Shown in pieces: positions 33,677-38,296 of a stretch of 64,000 nt of DNA. Where the stretch lies: positions 1 through 64,000 of the forward strand of contig NVXG01000036.1 of NCBI GenBank assembly GCA_002733805.1, given 5' to 3'. The notes under the pieces were generated by a model. That model was not told the origin of the DNA. It saw nothing but the letters and a program-made list of their open reading frames with translations, and ran no database searches. Each line of letters starts with the position of its first letter. Within the stretch, counting starts at the first letter, position 1. This DNA is from Robiginitomaculum sp. Its GTDB lineage: Bacteria; Pseudomonadota; Alphaproteobacteria; Caulobacterales; Maricaulaceae. The translations under genes were made by a program, and so were the position numbers.

Positions 33677-33845
33677 GAATTATCCGTGCCTTTTCCGGGA
33701 AAACCCTACTGTACCCAATCGGCAACAGGTTTGGCAATCACGGCTTGTTGATGTGGGAATCGGCGACTTGCCTCTTTTTCCTGCCTTAAAAATGCCTATC
33801 TACCCAAATATAACCAACAAGCCGAACAAATGGCTGGAGGATTTA

Positions 33846-34745
33846 ATGGCCAACACATTACCCGTCGCGTTAACCCCGGAAGCGTCGCTTTCACGGTATT
33901 TGTCCGAAATTCGCAAATTTCCCATGCTGGAAAAGGGCGAAGAGTTTATGCTGGCCAAATCGTGGAAAGAGCACGAAGACAGCGAAGCTGCCCACAAAAT
34001 GGTCACCTCACATTTGCGGCTGGTTGCCAAAATTGCCATGGGCTATCGCGGCTATGGTTTGCCGATCGGCGAAGTCATTTCCGAAGGTAATGTTGGCCTG
34101 ATGCAAGCGGTTAAAAAGTTTGAGCCGGATAAAGGCTTTCGGCTTGCGACTTACGCCATGTGGTGGATCCGCGCCTCGATCCAGGAATATATTTTGCGGT
34201 CTTGGTCCTTGGTCAAAATGGGTACCACTGCCGCCCAGAAAAAACTATTTTTCAACCTGCGCCGCATGAAAGGCCAGATGAAGGCCATTGATGAGGGTGA
34301 TCTGCGCCCCGATCAGGTCGAGGAAATCGCCACCAAACTCGGCGTGACCGAAACCGAGGTGATTTCGATGAATGGCCGGATGGCGGGTCCCGATGCCAGC
34401 TTGAACGCACCGATTAAATCGGCCGATGGCGATGCTGGACAATGGCAAGACTGGCTGGAAGATGAAAATCAGGTCAATCAAGAAACCTATGTGGCCGAAA
34501 CCGACGAGTTTTCATCGCGCATGGAATTGCTCAAATCCGCCATGAAAGACCTGAACGAGCGCGAGCAATTCATCATTTCGGAACGCAAACTGTCTGACGA
34601 ACCCAAGACGCTAGAACAACTGGCACAGGTTTATGGCGTCAGTCGCGAACGTATCCGTCAGATCGAAGTGCGGGCTTTCGAAAAGCTACAAGAAGCCATG
34701 CTGGCCGCTGCCGCCGATCAAGGCATTTTGCCGACGGAACATTGA
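33846..34745 (+). CDS. rpoH: RNA polymerase sigma-32-type factor (RpoH)
   Basis: A 299-aa heat-shock sigma factor. Region 2 includes HKMVTSHLRLVAKIA, EVISEGNVGLMQAVKKFEPD and ATYAMWWIRASIQEYIL. The RpoH box is in AAQKKLFFNLRRMK, and region 4 ends in EQLAQVYGVSRERIRQIEVRAFEKL. It directs transcription of chaperone and protease genes such as ftsH. The ATG at 33846 follows TGGAGGA; a long upstream open frame is not coding. No convincing promoter or thermosensor can be drawn here. Confidence 0.94.
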   Translation: MANTLPVALTPEASLSRYLSEIRKFPMLEKGEEFMLAKSWKEHEDSEAAHKMVTSHLRLVAKIAMGYRGYGLPIGEVISEGNVGLMQAVKKFEPDKGFRLATYAMWWIRASIQEYILRSWSLVKMGTTAAQKKLFFNLRRMKGQMKAIDEGDLRPDQVEEIATKLGVTETEVISMNGRMAGPDASLNAPIKSADGDAGQWQDWLEDENQVNQETYVAETDEFSSRMELLKSAMKDLNEREQFIISERKLSDEPKTLEQLAQVYGVSRERIRQIEVRAFEKLQEAMLAAAADQGILPTEH

Positions 34746-34827
34746 CCGCTCAAGCAGATCCGGGTTTTCGCAATTTATCGCTCAACAGTGGAGCCGACGC
34801 TTCTAAAGCCTGAATGTAACTGGTTTA

Positions 34828-34856
34828 TTGACGGTTATTCGATTTATTATTACAGA
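34828..34856 (+). promoter_or_regulatory. Possible promoter of the hydroxylase gene
   Basis: TTGACG (34828-34833) and TACAGA (34851-34856) are separated by 17 AT-rich bases, and the start codon follows 15 bases later. The -35 box matches 5 of 6 positions and the -10 box is weak, so this is a guess. Confidence 0.35.
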
Positions 34857-34870
34857 TACCCCATTCATTC

Positions 34871-35587
34871 ATGTTTGGGTTTTCTATGAATTTTCAAGGC
34901 AATTTCATACGGCTGGGTGCCATAGACATTTCACCGATCCAACAACTTGTTGAGCAATTTACAGAAGAGGAATGGTCGCAAAATTCCACACGCCAAAAAC
35001 GATATGAAGTTCATCAGGACACGCAATTTATTGGAATTGTCTATGATGAAGATTTTCGCCATGTCGGACCAACCAAATGCGCTGCGTTCACATCGTTTCA
35101 ACCCGTATTAAAACCCGCGCTTGCCTTGATCGCCGAACACTATGAAACGTGCCCCGAAATCAGAGCAAAACTGGGACGGCCAGTTCGGGGATATTTTATT
35201 CGGGTAAGTTTGGTTAAATTGCGTTCTGGCGGTAAAATCACTGAACACCAAGACATGAATTTTTCCCTCGCGCACTCGCACAGGATCCATATTCCGGTCG
35301 TTACAAATGACTCTGTCTTATTCAATGTTGGTCAGGAAACGATCAACATGAAAGAGGGCGAAATCTTTGAAATCAACAATCGGCGAAAGCATTCAGTGGT
35401 AAATGAAGGCGAGGCCGATCGGGTTCATCTGATCCTCGATTGGGTTTTTCCTTGGGAGCCATGTTGTTGTAGTGCCAAAACCCACCCCGGCACAGCTTGT
35501 AACCCACAGATATGTATGGCGACCGATCGATTGAAAATTCCGTGTCATTGTTATCCTGAAATAGAAATTGGGGCCAACGGCTGGTGA
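34871..35587 (+). CDS. Aspartyl/asparaginyl beta-hydroxylase family dioxygenase with Cys-rich tail
   Basis: A 238-aa Fe(II)/2-oxoglutarate-dependent oxygenase of the Asp/Asn beta-hydroxylase fold. The iron ligands are in EHQDMNFSLAHSHRIHIPVV and the distal NNRRKHSVVNEGEADRVHLILDWV. The fold ends near residue 197. A tail of about 40 residues follows, with seven cysteines (CCC, single Cys and CHC), which the family does not normally have. The start is ATG at 34871 or 34886. A sulfotransferase gene begins 32 bases after the stop, so a hydroxyl made by this enzyme could be sulfated; this is inference. The coding DNA is AT-richer than its neighbours. Confidence 0.78.
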   Translation: MFGFSMNFQGNFIRLGAIDISPIQQLVEQFTEEEWSQNSTRQKRYEVHQDTQFIGIVYDEDFRHVGPTKCAAFTSFQPVLKPALALIAEHYETCPEIRAKLGRPVRGYFIRVSLVKLRSGGKITEHQDMNFSLAHSHRIHIPVVTNDSVLFNVGQETINMKEGEIFEINNRRKHSVVNEGEADRVHLILDWVFPWEPCCCSAKTHPGTACNPQICMATDRLKIPCHCYPEIEIGANGW

Positions 35588-35618
35588 ACGGGTTGAGGGA
35601 TTTTTCAAGGATACTGTG

Positions 35619-36572
35619 ATGCAGATTCAACCGAGCATGGCAGCAGCAGCGATGCGTGCCACCCAAGGAATATCCGATGCTGAAATTTTGGATATTCTGG
35701 CCAATCCCGTTATCATCCTTTCCGCACCGCGCTCCGGGAGCACATTACTATTTGAACAACTCAGTCGTTTTGATTGTTTTTGGACCATAGGCGGTGAAAG
35801 CCACGGCATATTTCAAACATTTCCCTCGCTTCGCACAGAAAATGCTGACTTTGATTCCATGGCGTTAAGCGCGGGGCATGCCAGTCCTGAAATCTGCGCA
35901 GTATTTCGCCGTTGTTTTGTCTTGTTGATGAGAAATCATCAAGGTGTGCCGTTTCTTTCATTACCAAAACAGCAGCGCCCGACCAAGATTTACATGCTTG
36001 AAAAAACGCCGCGAAACGCTCTGAATATACCCTTCATTCGCAAGGTGTTTCCAAAGGCACGTTTTATTTTTCAGCACCGTGATCCTAGGCAAACAGTTTC
36101 TAGCTTAATGGAAGCTTGGACCATCGGCTTACAAACAGGACGGTTTGTTACCTTTCGCGACTTGCCCGATTGGACTTTGCCAGCTTGGTGCTTTTTATTG
36201 CCTCGGGGCTGGCGGGAATTGAAGAACAAGCCCTTGGCCGAAATAGCCGCGTTTCAGTGGCGGGCCAGCAATCAGGCAATTATCGATGGGTTGGCAGAAG
36301 TGCCTCGTTCCTGTTGGACATCAATCGACTATTCGGCCCTAGTCGAAGATCCAGCCAAGGCGCTGGGCGGCATCAAAACTGCCCTTGAGCTTGCATCTGA
36401 AATTCCTGATTTTACGTCACAGAACCTGCCATTTTCGCGGACAACAGTGTCACCGCCACACCCTGATAAATGGAAGCGGCACAAAGCTGAAATTGACGCT
36501 CTTTGGCCCATGCTTTCGGAGACCGAGGCGCAAATTATATCCTTTTGCCAGCCCCCTGAATTGACCCAATAA
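35619..36572 (+). CDS. Sulfotransferase family protein (Sulfotransfer_3-like)
   Basis: A 317-aa PAPS-dependent sulfotransferase of a different branch from the one at 26427. The phosphosulfate loop is ILSAPRSGSTLLFEQL near residue 35. The 3'-phosphate site is RFIFQHRDPRQTVSSLMEAW near 150, and the late region contains Glu and Trp residues typical of the group. The acceptor is unknown. The ATG at 35619 follows AAGGA; a TTG at 35568 would overlap the hydroxylase by 20 bases. Its position directly after the hydroxylase suggests joint action. Confidence 0.82.
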   Translation: MQIQPSMAAAAMRATQGISDAEILDILANPVIILSAPRSGSTLLFEQLSRFDCFWTIGGESHGIFQTFPSLRTENADFDSMALSAGHASPEICAVFRRCFVLLMRNHQGVPFLSLPKQQRPTKIYMLEKTPRNALNIPFIRKVFPKARFIFQHRDPRQTVSSLMEAWTIGLQTGRFVTFRDLPDWTLPAWCFLLPRGWRELKNKPLAEIAAFQWRASNQAIIDGLAEVPRSCWTSIDYSALVEDPAKALGGIKTALELASEIPDFTSQNLPFSRTTVSPPHPDKWKRHKAEIDALWPMLSETEAQIISFCQPPELTQ

Positions 36573-36604
36573 AAAGAGGACGTTTTAGGTTTATTTTTTG
36601 GAAA

Positions 36605-37000
36605 TTAGTCTTTGAGAACTCGCCGAAACATCAATAAGGGCCACAGCATCAAAAACAGGTTTGCGGCCCACCACAGGGCATCAAAACTAGCCTGAAACGT
36701 CCAGAAACTGACCGCCATAAATCCAGCGCAAAACGTCAGCACCATGGAGATCAGTGCCACTTGTCGCCAATTACCGCCGGTGCCTGCCATCCGCACGGCC
36801 AGCAGCCCACTGATCGAGGCCAAGATGTCCAGCGGCATGAACGACCAGTTCCAAGCGACAATATTTGGATCTGAATAATCGCGAAATAACCAGTCTTGCG
36901 GGATACCAAGCAGGTTTACCGCAACCAAAGCCGTGATCGCCCAATAGATCAAAAAACTAATATCTGTGACCAGAAATAATCGTTTGAGCGGTTTGGGCAT
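36605..37000 (-). CDS. DUF5360 (YvaD-like) membrane protein
   Basis: A 131-aa protein with four hydrophobic helices (about 8-30, 50-70, 80-102 and 108-125). The motif FRDYSDPNIVAWNWSFMPLDILASISGL matches the YvaD/DUF5360 family, which is of unknown function. Its start lies 3 bases after the purA stop on the same strand, so the two may be cotranscribed. Confidence 0.8.
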   Translation of the reverse strand: MPKPLKRLFLVTDISFLIYWAITALVAVNLLGIPQDWLFRDYSDPNIVAWNWSFMPLDILASISGLLAVRMAGTGGNWRQVALISMVLTFCAGFMAVSFWTFQASFDALWWAANLFLMLWPLLMFRRVLKD

Positions 37001-37003
37001 GGC

Positions 37004-38296
37004 TTATCCCTTAAACGGATCGCGCACCAGAATCACATCTTCGCGCTCAGGCGAGGTGGAGAGCATATCAACCGGCGCGCCGATTAGTTCTTCCAAGCGA
37101 CGTACATATTTGACCGCTTGCGCTGGCAAATCGACCCAGGAACGAGCGCCTTTGGTTGAGCTACTCCAGCCTTCAAAGGTCTCATAGACCGGCTTGGCCT
37201 CGGCTTGTTCCTTGATCCCGGCTGGTAAGCGGTGAATGCGTTTGCCGCCCAAGGTATAGGCCACGCAAACCTTCAGTTCGGCAAATCCGTCCAACACATC
37301 CAATTTGGTCAACGCAATGCCGGTAATGCCGCCAATGGTAATGGCTTGTTTAACCATCACCGCATCAAACCAACCACAGCGCCGTTTGCGCCCGGTGACC
37401 GTGCCAAATTCCGCACCCCGTTCGCCCAATCGCTGGCCAATATCGTCGTCCAGCTCGGTGGGAAACGGCCCCGCCCCGACCCGGGTCGTGTAAGCCTTGG
37501 TGATCCCCAACACATAGTTTAACCGATGCGGACCAATCCCGGTGCCACTGGCCGCCTGTCCGGCTATGGTGTTCGACGAGGTAACATAAGGCCAAGTACC
37601 ATGGTCCACATCCAACATCGCGCCTTGCGCGCCCTCGAATAAAATCTTTTGTCCGGCCCGCGCTGCAACATCCAGTTGTTTCCAGACGGCACCGGCATAG
37701 GGCAGAATTTTTGGGGCAATCTCGAGCAGGGAATCGACCAATTCTTGCGCGATAATTTCCTCCAGACCATAACCCCGGCGCAGGGCATTATGGTGCTGCA
37801 ACATGCTGTCAATGCGGGCCAATAAGGTTTCAGGATCGGCCAGATCGATCACCCGGATCGCCCGGCGCGCTGCCTTGTCTTCATAGGCCGGGCCAATGCC
37901 CCGTTTAGTCGTACCGATTTTAGCTTTTCCGGCAGCTTCTTCGCGCGCCACGTCCAGATCAGAATGCAACGGCAGGATCAATGCGGCATTTTCAGCCAAG
38001 GTCAGCCGGTCCGGGCCAACTTTTACCCCTTGTTCTGCAATGCGAGCAATTTCGGCCAGCAAGGCCCATGGATCGACCACCACGCCATTGCCAATGACCG
38101 AGCACTTGCCTTCGCGCACCACGCCAGAGGGCAATAATGACAGTTTATAAACTTCGCCATCGACCACGAGGGTATGACCGGCATTGTGGCCGCCCTGAAA
38201 CCGCGCCACCAGATCAGCCCGGGTCGATAACCAATCGACAATCTTACCCTTGCCTTCGTCGCCCCATTGCGAGCCGACGACTACTACATTGGCCAT
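37004..38296 (-). CDS. purA: Adenylosuccinate synthetase
   Basis: Condenses IMP and aspartate with GTP to adenylosuccinate, the first committed step to AMP. The 430-aa protein has the GTP P-loop [11 protein letters not shown] at 8-18, the catalytic Asp and His regions, and late motifs VGAGPFPTE and [14 protein letters not shown]. The start is ATG at 38296, 12 bases after the stop of the PagL-like gene, suggesting cotranscription. Confidence 0.96.

Follow-up and report, generated by a model that had tools for sequence, protein, structure and literature searches.

A gene pair in the 64-kb window studied here (the whole stretch of Robiginitomaculum sp. DNA analyzed, 64,000 nucleotides) encodes an oxygenase of the Asp/Asn beta-hydroxylase type and, 31 bases further on the same strand, a PAPS sulfotransferase. 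There is good support for a coupled, mobile and widespread unit that carries out hydroxylation and sulfation in sequence. Sequence evidence establishes that the two genes are coupled, that their catalytic motifs are present, that the pair is an insertion and that the cysteine-rich tail of the hydroxylase is conserved. We tentatively favor, at slightly short of an even chance, a horizontally acquired two-step modification unit whose likeliest target is a Sec-exported surface protein, with TonB-dependent receptors (TBDTs) considered first. The oxygenase would add a hydroxyl to a carbon atom, which for this family should be the beta position of Asp or Asn, and the sulfotransferase would then move sulfate from PAPS onto the new hydroxyl, hydroxylation probably preceding sulfation. 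The target would be the unfolded cytoplasmic precursor of such a protein, again with a TBDT as the first choice. The two enzymes very probably share one substrate; that it is a protein has an even chance, and that this protein is a TBDT is doubtful. The recurrence of the pairing points to a little-known route by which surface proteins are decorated. To our knowledge, few bacterial protein sulfations are known, RaxX/RaxST being one, and a new class of surface modification would be opened up if such a case were confirmed.

The gene pair, its site and the cysteine-rich tail

Both products score above their Pfam cut-offs, the hydroxylase with 58.6 bits for Asp_Arg_Hydrox (PF05118; cut-off, 22.6; residues 87-192) and the sulfotransferase with 78.5 bits for Sulfotransfer_3 (PF13469; cut-off, 27). 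These matches and the coordinates (Table 1) agree with the sequence-only reading, which had placed a hydroxylase before a sulfotransferase. The HxD...H and Arg residues expected of PF05118 are kept in the hydroxylase alignment, as are the PAPS-binding motifs expected of PF13469 in that of the sulfotransferase. By analogy with their superfamily, H126, D128 and H174 would bind iron and R184 would bind 2-oxoglutarate, and the two PAPS motifs would have the roles given in Table 1. Since the tail-bearing homologs begin with MNFQGN, the true start of the hydroxylase may be the ATG at 34886. APS kinase, for PAPS supply, is present in all five genomes examined.

Table 1. Coordinates of the gene pair, its predicted sites and its flanks in the window
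Feature	Position	Strand	Remarks
rpoH, left flank (start approximate)	33831..34745	+	TIGR02392, 370.6 bits
Insert, probably acquired, separating rpoH from the DUF5360 gene	34746..36604	.	Pair is sole content; empty site in G128; lower GC
PF05118 Asp/Asn beta-hydroxylase-like Fe(II)/2-oxoglutarate oxygenase (P0001)	34871..35587	+	238 aa, 717 bases, ATG 34871
HxD motif (H126, D128), predicted iron ligands	35246..35254	+	Invariant in 18/18 aligned proteins
H174, predicted distal iron ligand	35390..35392	+	Invariant in 18/18 aligned proteins
R184, predicted 2-oxoglutarate-binding Arg	35420..35422	+	Invariant in 18/18 aligned proteins
Cys-rich C-terminal tail, residues 198-238, seven Cys	35462..35584	+	All seven Cys also in G037, G554 and the Woeseiaceae MAG
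PAPS sulfotransferase, PF13469 (P0002)	35619..36572	+	317 aa, 954 bases, ATG 35619
SAPRSGSTLLF, presumed PAPS 5'-phosphosulfate loop	35721..35753	+	P37, R38, G40, S41, F45 invariant in 7/7
RDPRQTVSS, presumed PAPS 3'-phosphate site	36078..36104	+	R154, P156, S162 invariant in 7/7
DUF5360 gene, right flank	36605..37000	-	PF17314, 147.6 bits
purA, next after the DUF5360 gene	37004-38296		Named from reading of the sequence

Other single-protein searches returned little. Matches to NCBIfam were all far under the cut-off for both proteins; a single-sequence search of the PDB gave no match for the hydroxylase and two weak ones for the sulfotransferase; and PHROGs gave one weak unknown family for the hydroxylase (7.5e-7) and no family for the sulfotransferase. 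Three phage records matched the window hydroxylase weakly. The same genome encodes a second, canonical PF05118 protein (G000:C12:151402-151872; 165.7 bits), of a size common among bacteria of the family.

The pair is an insert in this lineage, probably gained by horizontal acquisition. It occupies the 1.86 kb between rpoH and the DUF5360 gene, a site that is empty in the nearest relative found (G128, rpoH 97% identical), where the two flanking genes lie less than 20 bases apart; a further genome (G120) also lacks the pair. As the earlier reading had noticed, the DNA is AT richer: the insert has 46.9% GC, versus 53.7% for the window, a value equally low in 4 of 311 segments of the insert's length. 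That reading had also placed the pair outside core neighborhoods, which proved incorrect, as it lies between the core genes rpoH and, past the DUF5360 gene, purA. Inspection of the window's genes showed no transposase gene in the insert.

The hydroxylase tail carries three adjacent cysteines followed by four more. All seven are shared, at about 60% identity, by four genomes: those of the window (G000), G037, G554 (locus L071) and a Woeseiaceae-titled MAG (L015), the last from a gammaproteobacterial family. A pattern scan of 446 sequences returned these four carriers and no fifth. Because the tail is conserved in four genomes, with every cysteine kept, a frameshift artifact, the outcome that would have undone the earlier claim of an extra seven-cysteine tail, is ruled out. 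Residues 201-238 are disordered in the structural model (confidence, about 32 to 51), and no Pfam domain was found in the tail at E 0.01. The tail may bind metal or dock a partner or target. It may conceivably resemble the Cys-rich tail of SecA, which binds SecB. L084, a member of the sister clade, lacks the Cys tail and has no SecB match in its region.

Recurrence of the pairing in bacteria and phages

Searches with the two window proteins point to their coupling. Of 137 family genomes, 11 have a match to the hydroxylase at E 1e-3 and 3 have one to the sulfotransferase at E 1e-10; these 3, namely, G000, G037 and G129, also hold the three best hydroxylase matches among the 137. The two genes are adjacent or one gene apart in each, a SecB gene intervening in G129. 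A scan of genome_contigs returned 29 stretches with a pattern, one of which, the Woeseiaceae MAG, is a relative with both genes, and G554 provided the fourth tail-bearing pair. The genes are adjacent in all four tail carriers found, so that the separation in relatives that would have spoken against the pairing did not appear. In a midpoint-rooted FastTree tree of 161 hydroxylases, the tail carriers group as one clade with a support of 0.965; G129, G696 and G735 adjoin it (0.837), and 79 of 80 phage proteins come next (0.95). A P0002-type sulfotransferase is adjacent or one gene off in all seven of these bacterial cases.

The co-occurrence and fusion search proposed with the sequence-only reading showed that the pairing recurs and that fusions occur in several genera. 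A profile of sulfotransferase relatives matched 9 of 398 phylum genomes at E 1e-15, and its top three matches after the window are single proteins with the hydroxylase N terminal and the sulfotransferase C terminal. Such fusions, about 600-740 aa long, occur in genomes of the same order, in one genome from a different class and in the genera Diaphorobacter and Asticcacaulis; Pfam finds both domains in loci L033 and L036, and G033 has a fusion of a hydroxylase with a Sulfotransfer_1 domain. The fusion of Diaphorobacter sp. HDW4B lies beside an IPTL-CTERM protein. In Asticcacaulis sp. DW145, a TonB receptor gene is followed by genes for a sulfotransferase, a hydroxylase, a TPR-sulfotransferase and a 596-aa hydroxylase-sulfotransferase open reading frame (ORF). 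The last, on a plasmid (L037:12040-13830), is entered in the PLSDB gene table with just its C-terminal sulfotransferase part.

Across the order, a hydroxylase profile (A3) matched 155 of 299 genomes at E 1e-8. We examined 60 regions from this search, 42 strong (L071-L112; E values up to 3.1e-36) and 18 weak (L113-L130; 1.5e-32 to 9.9e-24), a boundary that was chosen after the neighborhoods had been viewed; by single-sequence score, the two sets show a slight overlap (91.9 and 98.8 bits). The 60 regions leave out the strong places in G000, G129, G156 and G441 as well as the weaker places of this search, and many regions share a genus. In 34 of the 42 strong regions, a sulfotransferase is found at most 2.5 kb from the hydroxylase, versus none of the 18 weak ones; in both sets, genes are longest-ORF guesses, and sulfotransferases, like TBDTs, were sought with few seeds that miss other types. 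Counted by genus, the figures are 10/12 and 0/7, or 9/12 for the strong group if L106, which is one of the 34 and rests on a 30-bit match on the opposite strand, is omitted. The distance is at most 300 bases in 31 of the 42. In 14, all from two genera, both domains share a single reading frame, a class that is partly circular because profile A3 took in the N-terminal parts of three fusions found through their sulfotransferases; the searches of family genomes with the window proteins are free of this circularity.

No sulfotransferase is in reach in the remaining eight strong regions, of which six carry instead a TIGR03032/DUF4915-type gene adjoining the hydroxylase and three end at a contig edge. 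At L112:9438-11000, the hydroxylase is fused to a protein of this type. At L109:9788-12451, an 887-aa ORF matches both the TPR-sulfotransferase and the P0002-type sulfotransferase, with a hydroxylase adjoining on the other strand.

The pairing extends to phages. Scanning IMG/VR with a profile yielded 144 viral hydroxylase relatives, of which 80 were kept, some on contigs that are near copies of one another. Pfam-supported sulfotransferase types, from two Pfam families, lie within 300 bases of the hydroxylase in 27 of 80 loci and within 3 kb in 34, counts that are favored by queries partly drawn from hydroxylase loci. These figures rise to 40 and 47 of 80 with two motif-only groups (groups 27 and 29, two of the four used as queries), whose members have no Pfam match above the cut-off and whose motif was read by eye. 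Within 300 bases, neither set of control loci, anchored on a virion protein or on another oxygenase, yields a sulfotransferase (0/80 each), whereas within 3 kb the controls give 2/80 and 30/80, the latter close to the 34/80 of the hydroxylase. Because 30 of the oxygenase control loci match at this distance, close adjacency alone separates the hydroxylase from that control. A wider region of such enzymes is common to the hydroxylase and the other oxygenase in phages. By a loose test, a hydroxylase-like ORF also occurs in 48/80 and 72/80 control loci, and the 32 and 8 control loci that lack one have no sulfotransferase within 3 kb.

Genes of an APS-kinase-like and linked nucleotidyltransferase-like similarity group occur within 3 kb in 23 of 78 phage loci, 21 of which also have a sulfotransferase (all four groups counted); the one member examined scores 72.4 bits for APS_kinase in Pfam. 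Halogenase-like genes are found in 11 of 80 phage loci. Both kinds of gene would fit a decoration of virion proteins. Among the IMG/VR contigs (L206-L285), the hydroxylase is seen with sulfotransferases and with APS-kinase-like and Trp-halogenase-like genes; in L252, a weak cytidylyltransferase-like stretch follows the APS-kinase-like gene, perhaps forming a small PAPS synthetase.

Receptors, SecB and nutrient genes around the unit

TBDT genes lie within 8 kb in 17 of the 42 strong regions versus none of the 18 weak ones. An operon in the order TBDT, sulfotransferase, hydroxylase, TPR-sulfotransferase, hydroxylase is shared by Asticcacaulis and six genomes of the order. As for CciO and PiuC, oxygenase and TBDT genes share one locus in L015, L018, L037, L071, L073 and L077-L082, mostly with intervening genes. 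The window pair has no TBDT gene in its locus: four TBDT seeds matched neither within the 64 kb nor on the 14.6-kb contig that carries the pair in G037. Several fusion loci likewise have housekeeping neighbors and no TBDT.

The G696 locus reads TBDT, TPR-sulfotransferase, hydroxylase, SecB, sulfotransferase and GH20 chitobiase; a GntR/UTRA regulator gene lies upstream, on the opposite strand. The G129 locus, cut off by a contig end just ahead of the TPR-sulfotransferase gene, matches this order from that gene onward. Both genomes have two SecB copies, one of them inside the operon, and the four other genomes searched have one. The operon-borne second SecB gene lies between hydroxylase and sulfotransferase in two genera (L017:11927-12379 and L073:9530-10048). 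The operon of Asticcacaulis and its relatives is near phospholipase C, phosphonate or phosphatase genes, and overall the nutrient genes vary by locus, from GH20 chitobiase to phospholipase C with phosphonate genes to peptidases. An exported surface protein, a TBDT first, is favored because these nutrient genes differ, receptors recur and phages import nothing.

TBDT and Trp-halogenase genes are present in the pair's locus in L015 and L071. The TBDT of L071 (G554) has one relative in the window's genome (55%) and two in G037 (53 and 52%), in loci that each hold a halogenase and a second sulfotransferase-like gene (Sulfotransfer_1, 21.5 and 18.6 bits, below the cut-off of 22); Trp_halogenase genes thus accompany a TBDT in L015, L071, G000:C15 and G037:C86. 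The receptor at G000:C15, with its own sulfotransferase-like and Trp-halogenase-like genes, would be the first candidate target in the window's genome. At that locus (L180, G000:C15:84000-103900), M28 and S9 prolyl-oligopeptidase genes flank the TBDT, Sulfotransfer_1-like and Trp-halogenase-like genes.

The case for a specific partnership with this receptor is weakened because about 18 of 137 family genomes have the type (15 with a full-length match of 49% or more, 3 in pieces), and 2 of these carry the pair; by our arithmetic, the chance of both pair genomes falling within these 18 or so is near 0.016. No TBDT alignment column separates the 5 sequences from pair-bearing genomes from the 13 from pair-lacking ones (random-split control: mean 0.45, maximum 23).

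Related systems and the nature of the substrate

In full-text literature searches on the hydroxylase-sulfotransferase unit or its parts, none of the titles or abstracts returned dealt with it. In structural comparisons, the hydroxylase model (mean pLDDT, 81.5) ties between the folds of human AspH (Z 14.8, rmsd 3.1 over 165 residues, about 10% identity) and of proline hydroxylases, with PiuC also among the matches (Z 13.3). AspH, which we take to belong to the same Pfam family, acts on secretory proteins; it differs from the window enzyme, which has the Cys tail and a sulfotransferase partner and presumably works in the bacterial cytoplasm. The sulfotransferase model (85.2) ties in fold with tyrosylprotein sulfotransferases (Z 17.1), STF9 and CurM (Z 16.6). 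By profile against solved proteins, CurM (5.8e-18) and an olefin-synthase domain (2.2e-14) lead, followed by STF9 and then, still significantly, tyrosylprotein sulfotransferases (2.5e-8), from which the window enzyme would differ in that its expected target is a hydroxyl made by its partner and not Tyr. The closest solved relatives include small-molecule enzymes, the proline hydroxylases and the CurM domain of polyketide synthesis, which counts against a protein target, and overall the modeled ties fit a protein as well as a small-molecule substrate.

Relatives of the pair resemble CciT/CciO of Caulobacter, PiuA/PiuC and Fiu/YbiX in that a 2-oxoglutarate (2OG) oxygenase is genetically tied to a TBDT. 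The portions of the CciO reports considered here mention no sulfotransferase for these systems, and the window oxygenase is of the PF05118 type, with no TBDT beside it. The halogenases found in TBDT loci of the relatives recall TBDT-associated flavin halogenases, although in the window a halogenase lies outside the pair. According to the parts of these reports considered, CciO is a cytoplasmic 2OG oxygenase required for the function of one TBDT (PMC12004947; PMC12004943), and the support of outer-membrane receptors by such oxygenases is an open question (PMC12004947). The present unit, which recurs near receptors for different nutrients, is joined by SecB twice and is mirrored in phages, offers a directly testable answer, namely, that the mark may sit on the receptor itself.

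The mechanistic models that the CciO authors put forward concern a ligand or inhibitor (PMC12004947; see also PMC12004943 for the precedent), and this precedent, with that of PiuC/PiuA, lends weight to an alternative that we regard as unlikely: that the pair modifies a small molecule imported by the receptor, or exported for it, and so releases, detoxifies or builds a ligand. The proline hydroxylases among the fold ties are consistent with it, but the neighboring genes indicate unrelated nutrients, the same pairing occurs in phages and SecB is present in two operons.

Modification of an exported protein, our preferred reading, is what remains plausible of the earlier proposal that the pair hydroxylates and then sulfates a protein or peptide side chain; its other part, joint action of the two enzymes, is strongly supported by adjacency in 4/4 tail carriers, fusions, operons and phages. 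In a broader form that is rather improbable as a whole, bacteria and phages would share a widespread surface-protein modification in which cytoplasmic PF05118 oxygenases hydroxylate unfolded exports (TBDTs or virion proteins), sulfotransferases sulfate them, some phages bring PAPS-making genes, halogenases act on the same targets, and a dedicated SecB or, possibly in the window's clade, the Cys tail holds the client. Under this reading, the marks might adjust how the receptor binds its ligand or is recognized by phages.

It is quite unlikely that the pair tailors a secreted peptide or other natural product, such as a lasso peptide, that originates from another part of the genome. Table 2 of PMC10040529 lists, for clusters 1738 to 1748, a lasso B2 protein, a nucleotidyltransferase, an ABC transporter (listed earlier in the table), a sulfotransferase, an aspartyl beta-hydroxylase, a hypothetical protein, a further sulfotransferase, PqqD, asparagine synthase and a glycosyltransferase, and the near-consecutive numbers in this table, taken by itself, hint at one cluster in Pontixanthobacter-type genomes. 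Against this, no lasso genes were recognized beside the pair in the window, where the flanks are rpoH and DUF5360 and not precursor and maturation genes, or among the conserved neighbors listed. The earlier reading had found no precursor peptide gene close by, in line with our comparison of 359 small ORFs (15 to 110 aa) taken from about 2 kb around the four tail loci, none of which is shared outside known genes; a ribosomal precursor peptide beside the pair was thus rejected.

In curacin biosynthesis, sulfate turns a hydroxyl into a leaving group, and CurM and olefin-synthase sulfotransferase domains sulfate a beta-hydroxyl. That the sulfate here activates a leaving group for dehydration or cross-linking of the target, possibly aided by the Cys tail, seems very unlikely, even though these domains are the closest solved sequences to the window sulfotransferase. 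They are parts of polyketide synthases acting on a carrier-bound beta-hydroxyacyl chain, whereas the window enzyme is a free-standing protein of 317 aa with an oxygenase neighbor; no polyketide gene was seen beside the pair, tyrosylprotein sulfotransferases tie with CurM structurally, and a comparison of neighbors found no third enzyme common to all four tail pairs. Finally, it is highly improbable that the two genes are chance neighbors of unrelated function on a mobile cassette, as their insertion in this lineage might suggest, a view contradicted by the fusions and by the separate pairings in bacteria and phages.
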